In this document: in pieces, positions 19,862 through 28,198 of the stretch
Numbering within the stretch: position 1 is the first letter of the stretch
Layout of the letters: each line of letters starts with the position of its first letter
IMG/VR virus record: IMGVR_UViG_3300009139_000007
Span: 1 to 28,198 of that record
Strand: one strand, 5' to 3'
Origin: a virus
DNA length: 28,198 nt
Position numbers and translations under genes: made by a program
The notes under the pieces: model-generated
Seen by the model: only the letters and a program-made list of their open reading frames with translations
Databases searched by the model: none
Told to the model about the DNA's origin: nothing

Positions 19862-20697
19862 CCAATTATTCGACCCGGCTGCGGCTGGCGCTCCAGGAGA
19901 CTGGCGAGAACGACGGCTCGTGGGGGCAGGTGCTCAACACGGGCGTGTTCGACCTGGTCGACGATGCGGTGGCCGGCCGGATCGGGGTGGTGGCCAACTC
20001 CTCCCCCAGGACGCTGACGACATCCAACGGCGCCAACGACGAGGCGCGCTACATGATCCTGGGCGTCACGGGAGCCCCTGGCGTGGATCTGGATCTGAAC
20101 ATCCCGGCCCAGTCGAAGACCTACCTGGTCGACAACCAGCTCTCGGGCGGATTTACGATCAACATCGGTGTGGCCGGAAACTCGCGCGCAGCGGTCACCA
20201 ACGGCCTGTCGGTGTTTGTCTGGTGTGACGGGAGCGACACCATGCTGGTCGAGGTGGGGCAAGCGGAGAACGCGGCTACCGCGACCCTGGCCACGGACGC
20301 GAACCAGCTTGGCGGTGTGGCGGCGGCTCAGTACGCGCGCCTGGATGTCGTCCAGGGGTTCACCGTGGCGCAGGACACTGGGCGAGCAGCGGCACTCAGC
20401 GAGTCGGGCAGCAACGTCGCGTTGAACGCGGCCCTCTCGAATGCCTTCTACGTGGATTGGGCCGGTAACTGGAATCTCCAGAATCCAATCAACCCAAGCG
20501 ACGGTCAGACCATACGCATCATCTTCGAGCAGAGCGGTGGCGGGCCCAACACGATCACCTGGGGCAGTCAATATCAGTTCCCAGGCGGGGTCAAACCAGC
20601 CCTGTCGATCGGTGACAGCAAGATCGATTACGCCGGGTTCGAGTATCACCTGCTGAAAGGCAAATGGCTCGGAAACATGGTCAAGGACATGTCCTGA
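19858..20697 (+). CDS. Tail fibre-type structural protein (279 aa)
   Basis: The N-terminus MTNYSTRLRLALQETGENDGSWGQVLNTGVFDLVDDAVAG, read in parts, is a well-known opening of phage tail fibre and tail accessory proteins: 'LxLxxTGxxxGxWGxxxNxxxxxLdxAiaG'. The central part is a beta-rich domain (KTYLVDNQLSGGFTINIGV, FVWCDGSD). The C-terminal third (NVALNAALSNAFYVDWAGNWNL; GQTIRIIFEQSGGG; ITWGSQYQFPGG) matches the usual closing domain of such proteins. It begins inside an ATGA overlap and ends inside a TGATG overlap with the glycine-rich adhesin-like gene, suggesting joint expression. It probably attaches to the tail hub; the precise place on the virion is unknown. Confidence 0.78.
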   Translation: MTNYSTRLRLALQETGENDGSWGQVLNTGVFDLVDDAVAGRIGVVANSSPRTLTTSNGANDEARYMILGVTGAPGVDLDLNIPAQSKTYLVDNQLSGGFTINIGVAGNSRAAVTNGLSVFVWCDGSDTMLVEVGQAENAATATLATDANQLGGVAAAQYARLDVVQGFTVAQDTGRAAALSESGSNVALNAALSNAFYVDWAGNWNLQNPINPSDGQTIRIIFEQSGGGPNTITWGSQYQFPGGVKPALSIGDSKIDYAGFEYHLLKGKWLGNMVKDMS

Positions 20698-21557
20698 TGC
20701 CCTGGAATTTATTGATTCCGCTGTTTTCCGATCGGCCAGGCTTTTCGATCGTGATCAGCACCGATCAGCAGGACTTCAACCTGTATACCGCGCTGGGTTC
20801 GCCAACGGGGGTGGCAGACGTGAACGTGCTGATCGACTCGAACGCGGATATCAGAACCATGACGCTGGGCAACTGGGCCACCGGCAGCGTCATCAACCTG
20901 ACCTTGAGCGAGAACGCCAGGATCATGGGTCGTGGTGGTGCGGGCGGTGATGGCGGTGAGACCGTTCCCTACGGCAACAACGAGAACGATGGCCAGGACG
21001 GCCATAACGGGTTCGCGGGTAGCGCTGCGCTCACGATCCCCACGGCAATCACCCTGAACCTCGACATGGATACCGGGTTCATCTTCGGCGGCGCTGGCGG
21101 TGGTGGCGGTGGTGGTGGTACTGGCGGTACTGACGGCAACCCGAACCACAACGGTGGGGGCGGTGGTGGCGGCGGTCAGGGCTGGGACGTCAACCTCGGC
21201 GGCATTGGCGGCACCGACCAGTCTCGCGATGGTGATCCAGGAACGAACGGCGGCACCGCATCTCCTGGCTTCGGCGGTAATTCAGGTCGGTTGAATCAGA
21301 CTCCGGGAGAACCCGACCCGAACGGGCTCGGCGGAGACGGCAGAAGCTGGGGCCTCGCTGGCTTTGACGGCGCCGACTGTTTCCAGTTCACCCCGGTCCC
21401 GTTTGCATTCAACAACAACCCGGGCGGCGATGGCGGTGTGGCAGGTGCATCCATCCAGGGCGTGACGGCCACGGTCAACTACGTGGGCTCGTTAACTGAA
21501 AACCAGTTGACGACCGATCCTGCCTCACAACGTGGACCCAGGAACACGCTGCCATGA
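20697..21557 (+). CDS. Glycine-rich adhesin-like tail protein (286 aa)
   Basis: I chose the ATG at 20697, which overlaps the previous stop as TGATG, over an in-frame start 33 bases upstream. Residues 1-75 form a beta-rich attachment region (MPWNLLIPLF, FNLYTALG, NVLIDSNADIRTMTLG, INLTLSENARIMGRGGAGG). From about 80 to 245 the protein is dominated by Gly runs and Gly-Gly-X units, including stretches of eight glycines, interrupted by Asn, Asp and Thr. The C-terminus returns to beta structure (SIQGVTATVNYVGS). Glycine-rich motifs of this type form polyglycine-II helix sandwiches in the gp38 adhesins of T-even-like phages, where loops between them bind the host receptor. A receptor-binding role here is inferred from that parallel and from context. 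No homology to gp38 is claimed. Confidence 0.78.
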   Translation: MPWNLLIPLFSDRPGFSIVISTDQQDFNLYTALGSPTGVADVNVLIDSNADIRTMTLGNWATGSVINLTLSENARIMGRGGAGGDGGETVPYGNNENDGQDGHNGFAGSAALTIPTAITLNLDMDTGFIFGGAGGGGGGGGTGGTDGNPNHNGGGGGGGGQGWDVNLGGIGGTDQSRDGDPGTNGGTASPGFGGNSGRLNQTPGEPDPNGLGGDGRSWGLAGFDGADCFQFTPVPFAFNNNPGGDGGVAGASIQGVTATVNYVGSLTENQLTTDPASQRGPRNTLP

Positions 21558-24055
21558 GCAAAGTTAAACGCACACTGGATCTGCCGATCGAGGCGGGGGT
21601 CTACACCGAACAGACCGCGCGCGGTGCGACAGGTCGTTGGAAGGACGCTGACAAGGTTCGCTTCCGGTACGGCCTGCCTGAGAAAATGGGCGGATGGTCC
21701 CAGGTGGTCACGTCGGAAATGATCGGCCTCGCCAGGAAGATCTGGGACTGGGCCAGTCTCGACTCGAAGCTCTGGGTGGCACTCGGAACCGAGTCGAAGC
21801 TCTACCTCTGGCAAGGGGGTTTCCTTTACGACATGACGCCGATCCGTCGTGTGATCACGCTGGTGGATCCGTTCGATACCGACTCGGGCGAGTCGCTCGT
21901 CAACGTCTTTGATACCAGCCATGGCGCCCAGGAAGGCGATTACGTGATCTACACGGGCGGGAACCCGGTTGGCGGTCTCGACCTGAATGGTGAATTCAGG
22001 GTGCAGGAGGTGGTCGACTTCGAGAACTACACCATCGACGCTGGATCCGACGCCGGCTCGACTGCATCAGGTGGTGGGACCGTGCAGACTCAATACCAGA
22101 TCAGTGTCGGTCTATCGACCAGCGCGTTTGGCCTGGGGTATGGAACAGGCCCGTACGACGGCGAGGCCTACAACACGCCGCGAACCGTTTCGAGCGCCGT
22201 CCTGGCCTTGAGGATCTGGAGCCTCGACAACTGGGGTGAGGATCTGCTCTCGGTGCCGCGCGGTGGAGCAATCTACTGGTGGGACCGTGGCTCTGGTACG
22301 GGATCCCGGGCCGCCTTGTTGCCGAATGCGCCGCGCAACGTGAACTACATGATCATCTCCCAGAGAGATCGGCATGTGTTTGCGCTGGGTTGCACCGATC
22401 TGTTCACCAACAAATTCGATCCGCTCCTGATTCGCTGGTGCTCGAAGGAGGACTTTGGCGATTGGGAGCCGACGTCGGTCAACACGGCAGGCGATCTGCG
22501 GCTGTATCGGGGATCTAAGATCCAGGCGGCCGTCCGGACCCGAGGTGAGATCCTGGTCTTCACCGACGTCTCGGTACACCAGATCAACTACCTGGGCGGG
22601 TTCGCGGTTTACGGCCTGCAAACGGTGGGTGAGAACGTCTCGATCCAGTCACCCAACGCGGCGATCGAGGTCGATTACCGTGTGTATTTCATGGCCGAGG
22701 GCGACTTCTACATTCACGACGGTGTGCTCCGGGTGCTGCCCTGCGATGTGCGCAATTTCGTGTACGAAAATTTGAATCCGGCCCAGCGGGACAAGATCCA
22801 TGCGGGGCTGAACCGCGAATTCAACGAAGTCTGGTGGTTCTACCCTGGCAAGGATGCTGCCGTCTGGGTCGAGACGGATTTTACGACTAGCGCCAAGGAA
22901 AGCGAATACGCCGTTCAAAGGTGGGCCGGCGGCGTGAAGTACATCGTGGGTTTCAACGCGGGGGGCTACACCGAGATCACCACAGATGTGACGACGAACT
23001 ACGACCTGGTCTGGCTTCGTCAGAACACGGCAACCATCGAGACGCCGCTGGACATGGATTTGGAGGTCACCTTCAAGACCAACAACGGGCTCGACAGTCG
23101 CTGGTTCGGTGCGATCCTCAACGCCAAAGACGTCGACGGTGGAGAGAACACATCTGGAGACAACGTCACCGGCCTCACCGTTGGGATGAATGTAGGGCTC
23201 AATTTCATCAGGCTATACCAGCGCCGCAATGGCTCAGACGAGATGCTGTCGAGCGGGGGTTTCGGGATCGACCTGTCCACTCTAACCACGCCAGTCACCT
23301 TGCAAGACGATACGGTGTACGGGTTGACCATCACCCGAACAGCCGATCGCTTGAAGTCCACGTTGTATGACCCGGTCACCGACACCAAGCAGATCGTTCA
23401 GGACATCCTGCTGAATCAAAACGAGATCGATGATTACCCCGACGCTGGCTACGGACCCAATCTGGGGGAAAAGGGAATCGTTACCGACTATTCCGGCGTC
23501 ATGCAACTGATCGGGTTGCGGGCGGCCCCTGCAAACGTGTTGACGGCGCAACCTGGAACCGGCGTCACCACAGAGGTAAATCGTTATGTGATCTACAACT
23601 ACGAGGAGGAGACCTGGACGATCGGAGCTCTGGTGCGTACGGCCTGGCATGACCGCTCTCCGATCTTCAACAAGCCCTACGCGGCCGGCGAGGACTCGTT
23701 CCTGCATATCCACGAAACGGGGACCGATGACGATGGCACGGCCATGGTCGCGTTCATCGAGAGCTACGACATGGAGATCCCGGAGGCTGGCGAGGATCTC
23801 ATGCACGTCGATCAGCTCATCCCGGACTTCGTCACGCTGGATGGGTCGGTGGATATCACCCTGAAAGGCAAGAAGTACCCAGCGGCGGATTACGTCGTCA
23901 AGGGTCCGTACAACACCACGTCGGAAACCAACAAGCACTCCACCCGGATCCGGGCACGCCAGATCGCCATACGCCTGGAGAGCAGCGCGCTTGGAGACAA
24001 GTGGCGGATGGGCACGATGCGCGCGCGAGCTCGACCACACGGGAAGCGCGCCTAG
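21554..24055 (+). CDS. gp10-like tail hub / DNA stabilisation protein with inserted domain (833 aa)
   Basis: The core resembles the beta-propeller-like hub proteins that plug the portal-adaptor channel in P22-type phages (gp10). Diagnostic segments: LPIEAGVYTEQTARGATGRW...KVRFRYGLPEKMGGW at residues 5-50, SKLWVALGTESKLYLW near 75, SLDNWGEDLLSVPRGG near 225, TDVSVHQINYLGG near 340 and GDFYIHDGVLRVLPC near 380. A small beta module of the 'HGAQEGDYVIYTGG...FENYTI' kind sits at about 117-176. Between WWFYP (427-431) and RYVIYNYEEETW (677 onward), which normally lie close together, there is an insertion of about 245 residues. The insertion is beta-rich and may be ConA-like. The C-terminus (IRARQIAIRLESSALGDKWRMG) is again typical. 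The ATG overlaps the previous stop (ATGA). Confidence 0.85.
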   Translation: MSKVKRTLDLPIEAGVYTEQTARGATGRWKDADKVRFRYGLPEKMGGWSQVVTSEMIGLARKIWDWASLDSKLWVALGTESKLYLWQGGFLYDMTPIRRVITLVDPFDTDSGESLVNVFDTSHGAQEGDYVIYTGGNPVGGLDLNGEFRVQEVVDFENYTIDAGSDAGSTASGGGTVQTQYQISVGLSTSAFGLGYGTGPYDGEAYNTPRTVSSAVLALRIWSLDNWGEDLLSVPRGGAIYWWDRGSGTGSRAALLPNAPRNVNYMIISQRDRHVFALGCTDLFTNKFDPLLIRWCSKEDFGDWEPTSVNTAGDLRLYRGSKIQAAVRTRGEILVFTDVSVHQINYLGGFAVYGLQTVGENVSIQSPNAAIEVDYRVYFMAEGDFYIHDGVLRVLPCDVRNFVYENLNPAQRDKIHAGLNREFNEVWWFYPGKDAAVWVETDFTTSAKESEYAVQRWAGGVKYIVGFNAGGYTEITTDVTTNYDLVWLRQNTATIETPLDMDLEVTFKTNNGLDSRWFGAILNAKDVDGGENTSGDNVTGLTVGMNVGLNFIRLYQRRNGSDEMLSSGGFGIDLSTLTTPVTLQDDTVYGLTITRTADRLKSTLYDPVTDTKQIVQDILLNQNEIDDYPDAGYGPNLGEKGIVTDYSGVMQLIGLRAAPANVLTAQPGTGVTTEVNRYVIYNYEEETWTIGALVRTAWHDRSPIFNKPYAAGEDSFLHIHETGTDDDGTAMVAFIESYDMEIPEAGEDLMHVDQLIPDFVTLDGSVDITLKGKKYPAADYVVKGPYNTTSETNKHSTRIRARQIAIRLESSALGDKWRMGTMRARARPHGKRA

Positions 24056-27000
24056 ATGGCCCTCGAAGTAAAGGAACGCCTGCCCGACTGGCACCAGGAG
24101 AACTTTGAACGGTACCGAATGAACCAGTTGACGCAGATCCTGGAGCGTCGGTTCCTGACGATCGAGGAGGCGTTGAACGATATCGAGGTCGTGAATCGCG
24201 GCCTCTTTGGCAACCAGAACTTCGCGCCGACTGATCATACGCACGGCGAAATCGAAATCACCGATCTGGGCGAAGGCGAATTTTACCTGTCGCAGGACTT
24301 CCTCACCAACGTCATGCGCATCAGCGACATCTGGGACGTCAATGACTCGGGGATCCAGAACAACTACATCCTGAAGTGGGCTGCCTCTGCGAATGGCGGT
24401 ACGGGCGGCTGGATCGTTTCTGACGTAGCCACGATCAGTGCTTCCCTGGCTGGGTTGTCCGACACCGATATCAGTACGCCGATCCTGGATGGATCGTTGC
24501 TGGTCTATGACCAGGGGAGCAACCAGTGGGTCAACGCCGGCCAGGGCTCGCTGCCCTTCGTGCAGAAGTCTGGCGACACGATGGAGTCCCTGGGGCACCT
24601 GAACTTCCCGTCGAGCACTGAGACACGCTACGGAGATTCCTTGCAAGGCCGGATCGTCCATGACGGGATCTTCCGGATGATCAGCGCGTCGGGTGGCGGT
24701 GGCTTCCAGGTGCTCACGAACGATATCGATCTCCAGATCGATGTGGCGAATGTCGGGCCCGTGAGACTGGGCTACAGCGGAGACCAACGGTTCTCGACGC
24801 TCCTGGCCGGCATCGAAATAACTGATGGTACGGACGTCGCGACTCTCGACTACACGACCGGCGACTTGCGCCTGGCCAGTGACGCAACCAGCGGGCTGGT
24901 GGAGTTGTACGGTGCAGACTCGGGTGATGTCGTGACCCCACTGGCGGTCTTCGATCCCGATGGTTCATCACAGTTGTATTTCAACGGCGACGTCAAGCTG
25001 GAGACCTTCATCGAGGGGATTGAAGTTCGGGGCGACCTGAACAACGCGATCAACCAAGACCAAGACGCGACCTTGGATTTCTATCGACAGGACGGCACGT
25101 TGCTGATCGGCAAGCTGGGTTGGACGGGTGATGGTGCTGCACAGAGCAGACACCTGACCATTGAGAACCTACTCAGCAACGGAGAACTGCATCTCGCGGC
25201 AACGAGCGCGGGCGGGCTTCGACGGACCTTGGTCGAGTTGCGTGGCGGTGGGCCGGTGGTGATGAGATACCAAGACGGAGATCGCTTTGCGACTACTCCG
25301 CAAGGCATCGAACTCATGGGCGATTCGTTCCGTACCGAACTCACGTTCTCCCACCAAAACACGGTGGGTGATCAGAACCCGCAGTTCTACATCGAGACCG
25401 ACAACACGATAGCGGATGAGTCAGTCGACTTCTTCTCCTTCGAGGATGACGCGCAGTTCCGGTTCCATGGGCAGGACAGCGGTGGCGCTCAGTCCATTCT
25501 GGCGCTCATGGACCCCAACGCATCAGTCGATTTGTTTTACGACGGCACGCTTGCGTTCAGCACTAGCGCACGTGGAGCGCTTGTTACTGGGTCGTTGGAT
25601 GCTGACGACCCGACTCTGTTCTTCCGAGAAGGTTCGGATGACCGGGCGATGATGTTCTACGACATTGGAGCCAATGCACTCGTTGCCCAAACGATTGAGC
25701 CCCTCTCTGGATTTCAGATCATCCTTCGCTCGGCATCCGATAACCCTGAGTTCGGGGCTCTGTGGGTCGCGGATGGCGCGTTCTTCCTATACCACGATGG
25801 CCAACTCAAGATTGAGTCCAGAGACGACGGGATCAATGTCTACGGAAGCATAGACACCGTACCTACCGCTGGCGGGGCCCAAGACACCTACATATCGTTG
25901 CTCACCAGACTCGGAGCGGATGCTGGGTACCTCGGGTTCCTGAACGAGGAGCCGCTGACCCTTCGGAGCAATGTCTGGGGCGGCGACTTCCACATCGAAG
26001 CCACAAAGGCCGCTGGCTCAGTCGCATCTCTCCTGTTGGGTGATCCCGATCTTGGGGTTACGACGTATCACAACGGCAGCGCAGTGGCGCGCACTCTTGC
26101 TGCTGCTTCGGGTGGCTTGGAGGCAAACAACACCTCAACAGGTGCTGGCTTTGAGCGTGTCCTGACCACGAGCGACCTTAGCGGTGGTACCGGAGATGCT
26201 ATCTCAGACGCTGATGGTGATACACAAATTCAAGTAGAAGAAACAGCCGACGAGGACATCATTCGATTCGATCTCGGTGACAACATCACTGGCTTCCCAG
26301 CACTGGCGAACGCGCTACTTTTTTCTGCTGGTCAATTCACCTTGGGTCTTCCTGCTGCCGATGTGGCAACAACAATCGGTGGCCCGATCAGTTTGACATC
26401 TGGTGCGGGTAACACGACTGGGCTGGGTGGCGATATCAATATACTTACTGGCGACGGTGGACAGGTGTCCGTTGCAGGTGGTGACTTTATCGTAGAAGTT
26501 GGTACGGGCGCTGGCACAGGCGCAAGCGGAAACTTCTTTATCAATACCCTAACTGGTGCTGGCCCTCAAGGAGGGTCGGTACAGTCCACAGAATCAGCCG
26601 GACTTGTAGCAATATACGGTATTAACTCGGTCGCCAATCCAGCAGGAAATGTTGAACTTTGGGGAGGGTACGCCTCTGCTGGCGGTGGAGTAGGTGGTGA
26701 TCTAATCCTTTGGGGTGGAGGCGGGGGTGGGGCTGCCATTGCTGGTGACGCCATACTTATTGGTGGCGGAGCTACTACTACACCCGGCGATGCCATGGTC
26801 CTTGGTGGCGCTGCCTCCACAGTTGGAGTTGGCGGGGAGGCAGTTATAACTGGAGGTGCGGGTAGCGGAGCTGCTCGTGGCGGTCATGTAGTTATTACAG
26901 GTGGCCCTTCAGGCGCTGGAGCAACTGGCATTGGTGGTTCTGTCTTCATTACTGCCGCAGATTCATCTGCTACAAATGACGACGGTGGCGATATCCTCCT

Positions 27001-28198
27001 GACACCGGGTGCTGGAGCTGGATCAGGTGATGATGGCGCAATTATCATTGGTCAAACAACAGAGCCATTAGCCCCCCTAACAAACAAACTTTACAACCTT
27101 GCAGGCGCACTCACTTGGAATGGCACTGACTTGACGGCCAGCGTCATCCCAGACCCCCTGACCCTTGGTCAAATCATCCTTACCAGCAACAATGTTCTTG
27201 ATCTGACTGACACTGACATTGCGCTCAACGTCGGCGCAGCAGACCCGGACGCTGACGACCACATTGAGTTTGGGCTGTTCTCTGGTGCCGGGTTGGGTAT
27301 TCAGGCGAAGGCAACCGACTCGACAGTTCAGACGCTGAATATCCAGCCGTTGGGTGGAACTGTGAACATGGGGCCTCGTGCATCTGCGACTGTGGCAGGG
27401 GGTTCCGTTCTCCGACATGCCAATGGTTCGGGTGATGGTGGCAACATCATCGAGACGACGCTCGAAGGGATGATCCTTGAAGGTCGGGCTGGAACAAACA
27501 CCATTTTCGATTTCCATACGGCGTCCGGTGGTGCCCTCGCCATGCGGATGATCAAATTCGGTGCGTTCTTCCACTTCGAGGGGGAGACGCCCGGTCTGGA
27601 GTTCAAGTTCATATCGAAGAACAACGGTGGCAATACGCGACAACTGCTGCACATGGACCCCGACTTCAACACCCAAATTTATCACGCACAGAGTCAGGCT
27701 ATCGTCATTGAGACGCACACGCCTGCAACGGGTGGCGCATTCGTCAACAACACCGAGACTGGTGCAGGGCTGGAGCGCGTCCTGACCACGAGCGATCTGG
27801 GTGGTACTGCTGCGCTCGACGATTTGACCGACGTCACGCTTGCGGCTGAAGCGACTGGCGACATGCTCTACAAGTCAGCGGGCGACTGGTTGAACACGGC
27901 GAAGCTGTCGTGGAATGACGCAGGCTCGATCCTGACGATCAACCACACGTCAGGCAACGATCCGACGCTGGAGTTCAACGAGGCCGGGGTCGAGGTCGCG
28001 TCGATTCTTTGGGAGGGTGGATTCAACCAGCTCTGGATTCAGACAGAGACCGCAGACGATGAGATCGCATTCTTTGTGGGTGGGCAGACCCAGGCGCAGT
28101 TCGGCAGACCCAACGGGGAACAGCTTCTTTATCACGACGGCGCGCAGGTGTTCAACACCATCCCCGAGGGTATAGAGCTTCGCGGCACCGTCGCCACC
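24056..28198 (+). CDS. Giant repetitive tail fibre protein, 3' end beyond window
   Basis: The ATG directly follows the hub stop (TAGATG). I read the frame through to the last base without meeting a stop: 1381 codons, incomplete. Residues 1-60 are helical and likely attach to the virion. A THGEIEITDLGE motif and a KSGDTM motif (both common in fibres) follow. From about 240 to 690, modules of 70-100 residues repeat, each ending with a 'LYxDGxxxxxTxxxGIxVxG' signature (seen near bases 24770, 24971, 25261, 25532, 25787, 26063 and again at 28127). Near 26200 comes an ISDADGDTQIQVEE motif, then a Gly-rich beta-solenoid (residues 778-999). After it, non-repetitive and module-type sequence resumes. 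No chaperone domain or enzyme motif is visible so far. It is the main candidate for host recognition. Confidence 0.9.
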   Translation, partial: MALEVKERLPDWHQENFERYRMNQLTQILERRFLTIEEALNDIEVVNRGLFGNQNFAPTDHTHGEIEITDLGEGEFYLSQDFLTNVMRISDIWDVNDSGIQNNYILKWAASANGGTGGWIVSDVATISASLAGLSDTDISTPILDGSLLVYDQGSNQWVNAGQGSLPFVQKSGDTMESLGHLNFPSSTETRYGDSLQGRIVHDGIFRMISASGGGGFQVLTNDIDLQIDVANVGPVRLGYSGDQRFSTLLAGIEITDGTDVATLDYTTGDLRLASDATSGLVELYGADSGDVVTPLAVFDPDGSSQLYFNGDVKLETFIEGIEVRGDLNNAINQDQDATLDFYRQDGTLLIGKLGWTGDGAAQSRHLTIENLLSNGELHLAATSAGGLRRTLVELRGGGPVVMRYQDGDRFATTPQGIELMGDSFRTELTFSHQNTVGDQNPQFYIETDNTIADESVDFFSFEDDAQFRFHGQDSGGAQSILALMDPNASVDLFYDGTLAFSTSARGALVTGSLDADDPTLFFREGSDDRAMMFYDIGANALVAQTIEPLSGFQIILRSASDNPEFGALWVADGAFFLYHDGQLKIESRDDGINVYGSIDTVPTAGGAQDTYISLLTRLGADAGYLGFLNEEPLTLRSNVWGGDFHIEATKAAGSVASLLLGDPDLGVTTYHNGSAVARTLAAASGGLEANNTSTGAGFERVLTTSDLSGGTGDAISDADGDTQIQVEETADEDIIRFDLGDNITGFPALANALLFSAGQFTLGLPAADVATTIGGPISLTSGAGNTTGLGGDINILTGDGGQVSVAGGDFIVEVGTGAGTGASGNFFINTLTGAGPQGGSVQSTESAGLVAIYGINSVANPAGNVELWGGYASAGGGVGGDLILWGGGGGGAAIAGDAILIGGGATTTPGDAMVLGGAASTVGVGGEAVITGGAGSGAARGGHVVITGGPSGAGATGIGGSVFITAADSSATNDDGGDILLTPGAGAGSGDDGAIIIGQTTEPLAPLTNKLYNLAGALTWNGTDLTASVIPDPLTLGQIILTSNNVLDLTDTDIALNVGAADPDADDHIEFGLFSGAGLGIQAKATDSTVQTLNIQPLGGTVNMGPRASATVAGGSVLRHANGSGDGGNIIETTLEGMILEGRAGTNTIFDFHTASGGALAMRMIKFGAFFHFEGETPGLEFKFISKNNGGNTRQLLHMDPDFNTQIYHAQSQAIVIETHTPATGGAFVNNTETGAGLERVLTTSDLGGTAALDDLTDVTLAAEATGDMLYKSAGDWLNTAKLSWNDAGSILTINHTSGNDPTLEFNEAGVEVASILWEGGFNQLWIQTETADDEIAFFVGGQTQAQFGRPNGEQLLYHDGAQVFNTIPEGIELRGTVAT
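26126..26194 (+). repeat. Fibre direct repeat, copy 1
   Basis: This encodes NNTSTGAGFERVLTTSDLSGG inside the fibre gene (read as two parts: NNTSTGAGFE and RVLTTSDLSGG). It shares the 9-base start AACAACACC and a 17-base identical core (GTCCTGACCACGAGCGA) with the second copy 1620 bases downstream. It ends the upstream modules and immediately precedes the lower-GC cassette. Confidence 0.85.
26387..27052 (+). repeat. Glycine-rich beta-solenoid repeat region inside the fibre gene
   Basis: The encoded residues 778-999 form about 14 short repeats of roughly 14-18 residues. Each has a 3-5 residue hydrophobic strand followed by a Gly/Ala/Ser/Thr-rich turn and usually Gly-Gly-Asp or a similar step: ISLTSGAG, INILTGDGG, LILWGGGG, AILIGGGA, AMVLGGAA, AVITGGAG, VVITGGPS, VFITAADS, ILLTPGAG. 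This pattern predicts a stacked beta-solenoid shaft. The DNA is lower in GC than the flanks (29 of 60 bases are G or C at 26581-26640, hand count) and favours T- and A-ending codons (ggt, gct, act, ctt). Confidence 0.8.
27746..27811 (+). repeat. Fibre direct repeat, copy 2
   Basis: This encodes NNTETGAGLE followed by RVLTTSDLGGTA. It is in the same frame as copy 1 and exactly 1620 bases (540 codons) away. The following sequence (LDDLTDVTLAAEATGDMLYK) is a typical fibre linker and leads into a new module. Confidence 0.85.

Follow-up and report, generated by a model that had tools for sequence, protein, structure and literature searches.

The large fibre-type structural gene at the end of the window (the whole 28,198-nucleotide stretch of viral DNA that was analysed) is probably a chain of exchangeable modules, into which a 320-codon module from a lower-GC pool is likely to have entered behind the first copy of a recurring joint peptide. 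The limits of this module, its homologues, an empty site, the base composition, and the uncoupling of fibre sequences at the joints can each be read from the DNA and its translation. In the course of events that we propose, the fibre would consist of exchangeable modules linked by a conserved joint peptide of ~25 residues, and a module with a conserved head, variable glycine-rich coils, and a conserved tail would have entered in frame right after joint 1, separating it from the DPLTLGQ segment that is its usual downstream neighbour. The module would have originated in a lower-GC phage gene pool, and the direction was presumably insertion here rather than loss elsewhere.

The fibre-type gene (24056 to 28198, plus strand, as are all fibre features below) has 1,381 codons in the window and is cut by the window end. 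A second assembly of this virus (L002; record IMGVR_UViG_3300024060_000001, 74,480 bp) includes the full gene of 1,886 codons, at L002:10001-15661. There was 1 mismatch in 16,645 nt between the window and L002/L053, at position 25048, outside the cassette, which is identical in the two assemblies of the virus. The gene is located 3' of a gene for a PHROG virion structural protein (21554 to 24055), and its genomic position, length, and repeat architecture make it a fibre candidate, with no confident structure and no family match (0 matches in PHROGs, Pfam, and NCBIfam). A search of INPHARED with the whole fibre returned only a weak match (21%), in cyanophage P-SSP10. Relatives identified by a neighbouring gene were unusable as a before/after comparison: the sequence of L054 (72% in the neighbouring gene) stops before the fibre, and the part in common with L055/L056 is mainly the fibre N terminus.

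A glycine-rich gene at 20664 to 21557, with runs such as GGAGGGGGGGGTGG, has a sub-threshold match to the Pfam GP38 adhesin family (E 0.034), and may encode an adhesin or tip protein of the polyglycine type. Immediately 3' of the fibre gene, L002:15702-16265 encodes a GNAT-type acetyltransferase (Pfam Acetyltransf_1, E 1e-4), a homologue of which, 52% identical, is found in L055. A very large open frame downstream (L002:18376-25200, 2275+ aa) matches DUF7178 (E 9e-28) and includes a GGDEF-like stretch seen by eye (VIAIDVDSLGWVNKQMGSPRGDELL...HKSGDEFFV) that was unreported by Pfam.

The composition step in the fibre gene, first pointed out in the initial annotation, is real and very strong. A change-point fit of GC3 gave values of 0.36 inside and 0.69 outside the tract, with an LLR of 59.5, compared to a best LLR of 8.1 in 20 synonymous shuffles that served as the control. 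The best-fit limits of the tract are 26177 and 27127; the left edge coincides with joint copy 1, the right edge is ~600 nt before copy 2, and the interval from repeat to repeat fits worse (LLR, 42.5 versus 59.5). The drop in mean GC is modest (0.55 versus about 0.60), and the signal sits in third codon positions: GC3 is about 0.7 across the fibre outside the module and 0.79 in the other genes, and it falls to 0.37 within the module. When amino acid content is taken into account, GC3 remains low (z about -15 for the glycine-rich part), and in 60-codon windows other genes are at most 0.35 below expectation versus about 0.47 here. A second, shorter GC3 dip (0.51 to 0.56) is found past the window end, just before the third joint (L002:14321-14680, residues 1441 to 1560), and may be another imported module.

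The low-GC3 tract fits one module, located at 26192 to 27151 (residues 713 to 1032, exactly 320 codons, GDAISDADGDTQIQVEE ... TNKLYNLAGALTWNGTDLTASVIP), which immediately follows joint 1 and leaves 594 nt between its end and joint 2. It opens with GDAISDADGDTQIQVEE...IRFD-x-GDNxTGFPA, continues with glycine-rich coils, and closes with TNKLYN-x-AGALTWNGTDLTxS. The coil region (26366 to 27055) is 30% glycine with a hydrophobic period of 16 residues, and the end block TNKLYNLAGALTWNGTDLTASVIP (27080 to 27151), which is common to other carriers, has 69% amino acid identity to L003 over 59 residues. Because of the glycine content, the 16-residue period, and a number of coils that differs widely among homologues, we infer that the module may be a shaft or spacer of the fibre that changes its length or reach. 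AlphaFold2 modelled both the module and the joint region at low confidence (mean pLDDT, 44 and 56, respectively), and no credible sequence relative of the module was found in the PDB. A 26-residue motif, DADGDTxIxVEExADEDxIRFD (residues matching 716 to 741), was found in L007 to L049 and L214 to L268; it is very widespread in phage fibre-like proteins, far wider than the glycine module.

Homologues of the module were detected in L003, L004, and L005, and partial homologues in L006 and L213. Three copies of the module head are present within one ORF of L004, two of which sit behind a module tail (...WNGTDLTAGGGGDAIADAD..., ...WNGTDLTAGAGGALADADG...), and L005 has the module in several ORFs. These carriers, which otherwise have little or no similarity to the window virus, have a genome GC of 54% (L003), 47% (L004), and 48% (L005). 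The GC3 of the module in L004 and L005 (0.24 to 0.30) is near that of their own genes (0.36 to 0.44) and far below the 0.79 of the window; in L003, it is 0.30 versus 0.60 for the genome. Because the GC3 of the module falls short of the genome value in L003 and lies nearer the background in L004 and L005, a lower-GC third source is suggested. The GC3 step and the homologues in lower-GC phages support the view in the initial annotation that a foreign, lower-GC, in-frame cassette is present in the fibre gene.

In L003, L004, and L005, the module has a lower GC3 than the genome around it, which would also be consistent with low GC3 being intrinsic to glycine-coil repeats, through codon choice or repeat-driven evolution, rather than a result of transfer. 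This explanation is unlikely, however. The other glycine-rich gene of the same phage (20664 to 21557) has a GC3 of 0.69, the head of the module is low in GC3 even though it is not glycine rich, GC3 is not depressed in the module of L213, and a head that is 96% identical to that of L003 needs DNA transfer in any case. Still, the module may by its nature contribute to the low GC3, or there may have been a third donor.

The comparison with L003 provides insight into how recently the module was acquired. In fixed register, identity is at background before 26191, reaches 15/15 bases there, and falls off after 26301, giving a 110-nt patch in the module head (26191 to 26301) that is about 96% identical to L003. 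At the right edge, background is followed by 15/15 identical bases exactly at 27152, where a 23-nt identity begins that matches a different place of L003; both edges of the module are abrupt identity breaks against L003. In the head (residues 713 to 750), 32 of the 35 positions with identical amino acids are also codon identical (91%), compared to 37% (maximum, 61%) under random pairing. Codon identity is 30 to 62% in all other pairs of module heads, and therefore DNA-level constraint is not the cause of the high value. The next block after the head is at background (11/26). Outside the fibre, a blastp comparison of the genes, which replaced a tblastx search that had returned short pieces only, detected one gene with 31% amino acid identity between the window and L003 and a weak match in another. 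Thus, a high-identity fragment with flanks at background, the 110-nt head, is shared by otherwise unrelated fibres.

The 91% codon identity of the head against a protein background of ~31%, together with the drop after the head, makes a recent DNA exchange involving the head a well-supported interpretation. The whole module is not a recent copy of that of L003, nor is L003 its donor, because codon identity past the head is at background. A recent exchange of the cassette, as first proposed, is consequently shown for its first 110 nt only, the rest having diverged to background codon identity.

The initial annotation had proposed that the cassette was bounded by two in-frame direct repeats. Both repeats were confirmed, at 26126 to 26185 and 27746 to 27805, with 47 of 60 positions identical (78%) and a distance of 1,620 nt, or 540 codons, as were the identical blocks of 9 nt (AACAACACC) and 17 nt (GTCCTGACCACGAGCGA) within them. 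Copy 1 encodes NNTSTGAGFERVLTTSDLSG, at the end of an upstream repeat module of ~90 amino acids, and copy 2 encodes NNTETGAGLERVLTTSDLGG, at the end of the module that starts at 27152 and not of the low-GC module. The stretches around the two repeats match each other (E about 1e-12 to 1e-14), and therefore the repeats are not due to chance; spacing by a multiple of three is expected automatically for any repeat within one reading frame. A third copy of the joint, DNQATGAGFERVLTIADLGS, is found beyond the window end in L002, 326 residues after the second, and the full gene thus has three copies, not a unique pair of repeats. In L134, amino acid identity to the window is 67% over 160 residues up to and including joint copy 2, and the downstream part differs.

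The segment beginning DPLTLGQIILT (27152 to 27745), which follows the low-GC module in the window, is directly behind the joint in relatives. Behind the joint, L003 (joint at L003:4190-4260) reads ...GGGFERVLTTADLGGVADPLTLGQIILT and L150 reads ...GAGFERVLTIGDLFTLADPLTIGQIII, and this direct passage from the joint to a 27152-type segment is the empty site. L135 and L163, which have the same segment behind the joint and differ in its first few residues, are close equivalents. The protein encoded by 27152 to 27805 is 62% identical to L135 533-760 and 56% identical to L150 447-661. The distance from joint to joint is 216 amino acids in L150 and 540 in the window, or about 216 + 320. Because of these lengths and the homology of the 27152 segment to L135 and L150, the interval between the repeats consists of two modules, the foreign low-GC module and another that goes with copy 2; the 594 nt before copy 2 are part of this other, host-like module.

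A cassette delimited by the two 60-nt repeats, with an interior that is lost or exchanged by recombination between the copies, is therefore improbable. In its favour, the repeats are real and in frame, joints mark swap points between fibres, and two joints of L150 enclose a whole unit. Against it, the low-GC tract and the homology to other carriers stop at 27127 to 27151, well short of copy 2, which contradicts the proposed boundaries; the sequence from 27152 to 27745 forms a module of its own; the joint has a third copy; and the interior is the same in both assemblies. There is a similarly low probability that the window virus kept an ancestral module that disappeared from behind the equivalent joints in L003, L150, L135, and L163. 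Although no formal outgroup fixes the direction, such a history would require the module to be lost on separate occasions, and it would account neither for the jump in composition nor for the occurrence of the module in lower-GC phages.

The repeats belong to a large family of joints, with the peptide consensus GG-x-E-x-NN-x-x-TGAGFERVLT-x-x-DL. A search with the joint alignment recovered 76 loci, and a motif scan of the loci identified 109 joints in 81 ORFs of 73 loci, with one to four joints per ORF that were 83 to 576 residues apart. In 63 non-redundant ORFs, pairs with homologous sequences in the 60 residues upstream were compared over the 60 residues downstream. At the joints, 252 of 288 such pairs (88%) were unrelated downstream, in a set of loci gathered with the joint as the query and with pairs that are not independent, compared to 321 of 871 pairs (37%) at random sites and 39 to 79% when the test position was slid by 120 to 250 residues. 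Among the most similar upstreams, 76% were uncoupled at the joint versus 13 to 55% elsewhere. This position-controlled protein test replaced a weak first test of DNA breakpoints, in which 27% of the raw breakpoints lay no more than 60 nt from a joint versus 15% expected, a mild concentration only. L136, L147, L153, and L154 are 83 to 90% identical in DNA over the first ~153 residues, to the first joint, and then have differing module orders. Because of the greater uncoupling at joints than at shifted or random positions, the joint is a swap point between fibre halves, in agreement with the suggestion that the repeated peptide marks such points.

The exchange most probably proceeded by in-frame illegitimate or relaxed homologous recombination between the fibre genes of co-infecting phages, assisted by short conserved DNA blocks at the joints and at the module heads and tails. 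RecT, ERF, Rad52, RecA, resolvase, and tyrosine integrase were not detected in the 74-kb contig, and the recombining enzyme may be that of the host or of the partner, belong to another family, or be encoded on missing sequence. It is extremely improbable that a diversity-generating retroelement or an invertase, for which fibre genes are usual targets, produces programmed variation here: the 74-kb contig, which is possibly incomplete, has no match to a reverse transcriptase (RVT_1) or to a serine or tyrosine recombinase, and no inverted arrangement was seen.

In T-even phages, shuffling of long tail fibres and gp38 adhesins involves conserved glycine-rich or joint motifs that alternate with exchangeable segments. 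The fibre studied here resembles them in that alternation, but no sequence relationship of the fibre or module to them was found. Phage Rad52-like recombinases use short, diverged homology in relaxed homologous recombination (De Paepe et al. 2014, PMC3945230), which could explain an exchange via the 78%-identical 60-nt joint, but no Rad52-like recombinase family was detected in this contig. Exchange of tail-fibre modules is already known: recently emerged domain mosaicism has been described in phage receptor-binding proteins, the only proteins in which recent mosaicism across families was found (Smug et al. 2023, PMC10684548). As in that study, high-identity protein fragments are common to otherwise unrelated tail fibres; unlike in that study, there is a conserved peptide joint and a visible empty site, with no match in PHROGs, Pfam, NCBIfam, or INPHARED. 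The joint family, the module, and the empty-site evidence appear to be undescribed, because there was no fibre match in Pfam, PHROGs, or NCBIfam, a search of INPHARED with the joint and the module gave 0 matches, and a literature search found no mention of the joint letters.

How uncultured phages exchange tail-fibre modules is usually deduced from patchwork similarity alone; the joint, with its pair of empty and filled sites, offers a concrete, searchable case. More tentatively, and on balance we doubt it, the TGAGFERVLT joint could be a dedicated adapter, kept at both the DNA and protein levels, that allows arbitrary modules to be plugged in frame across lineages and gives phage families a common module pool. 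Were this the case, metagenomes could be mined, with the joint as an anchor, for the repertoire of modules and the rates at which they are swapped. In one scan of bacterial and archaeal genomes, the joint was found in two MAG contigs only, from Acidithiobacillales and Planctomycetota (L270, 7346-7477; L271, 8001-8165). It is possible that these contigs are prophages or stray phage contigs that hint at hosts.
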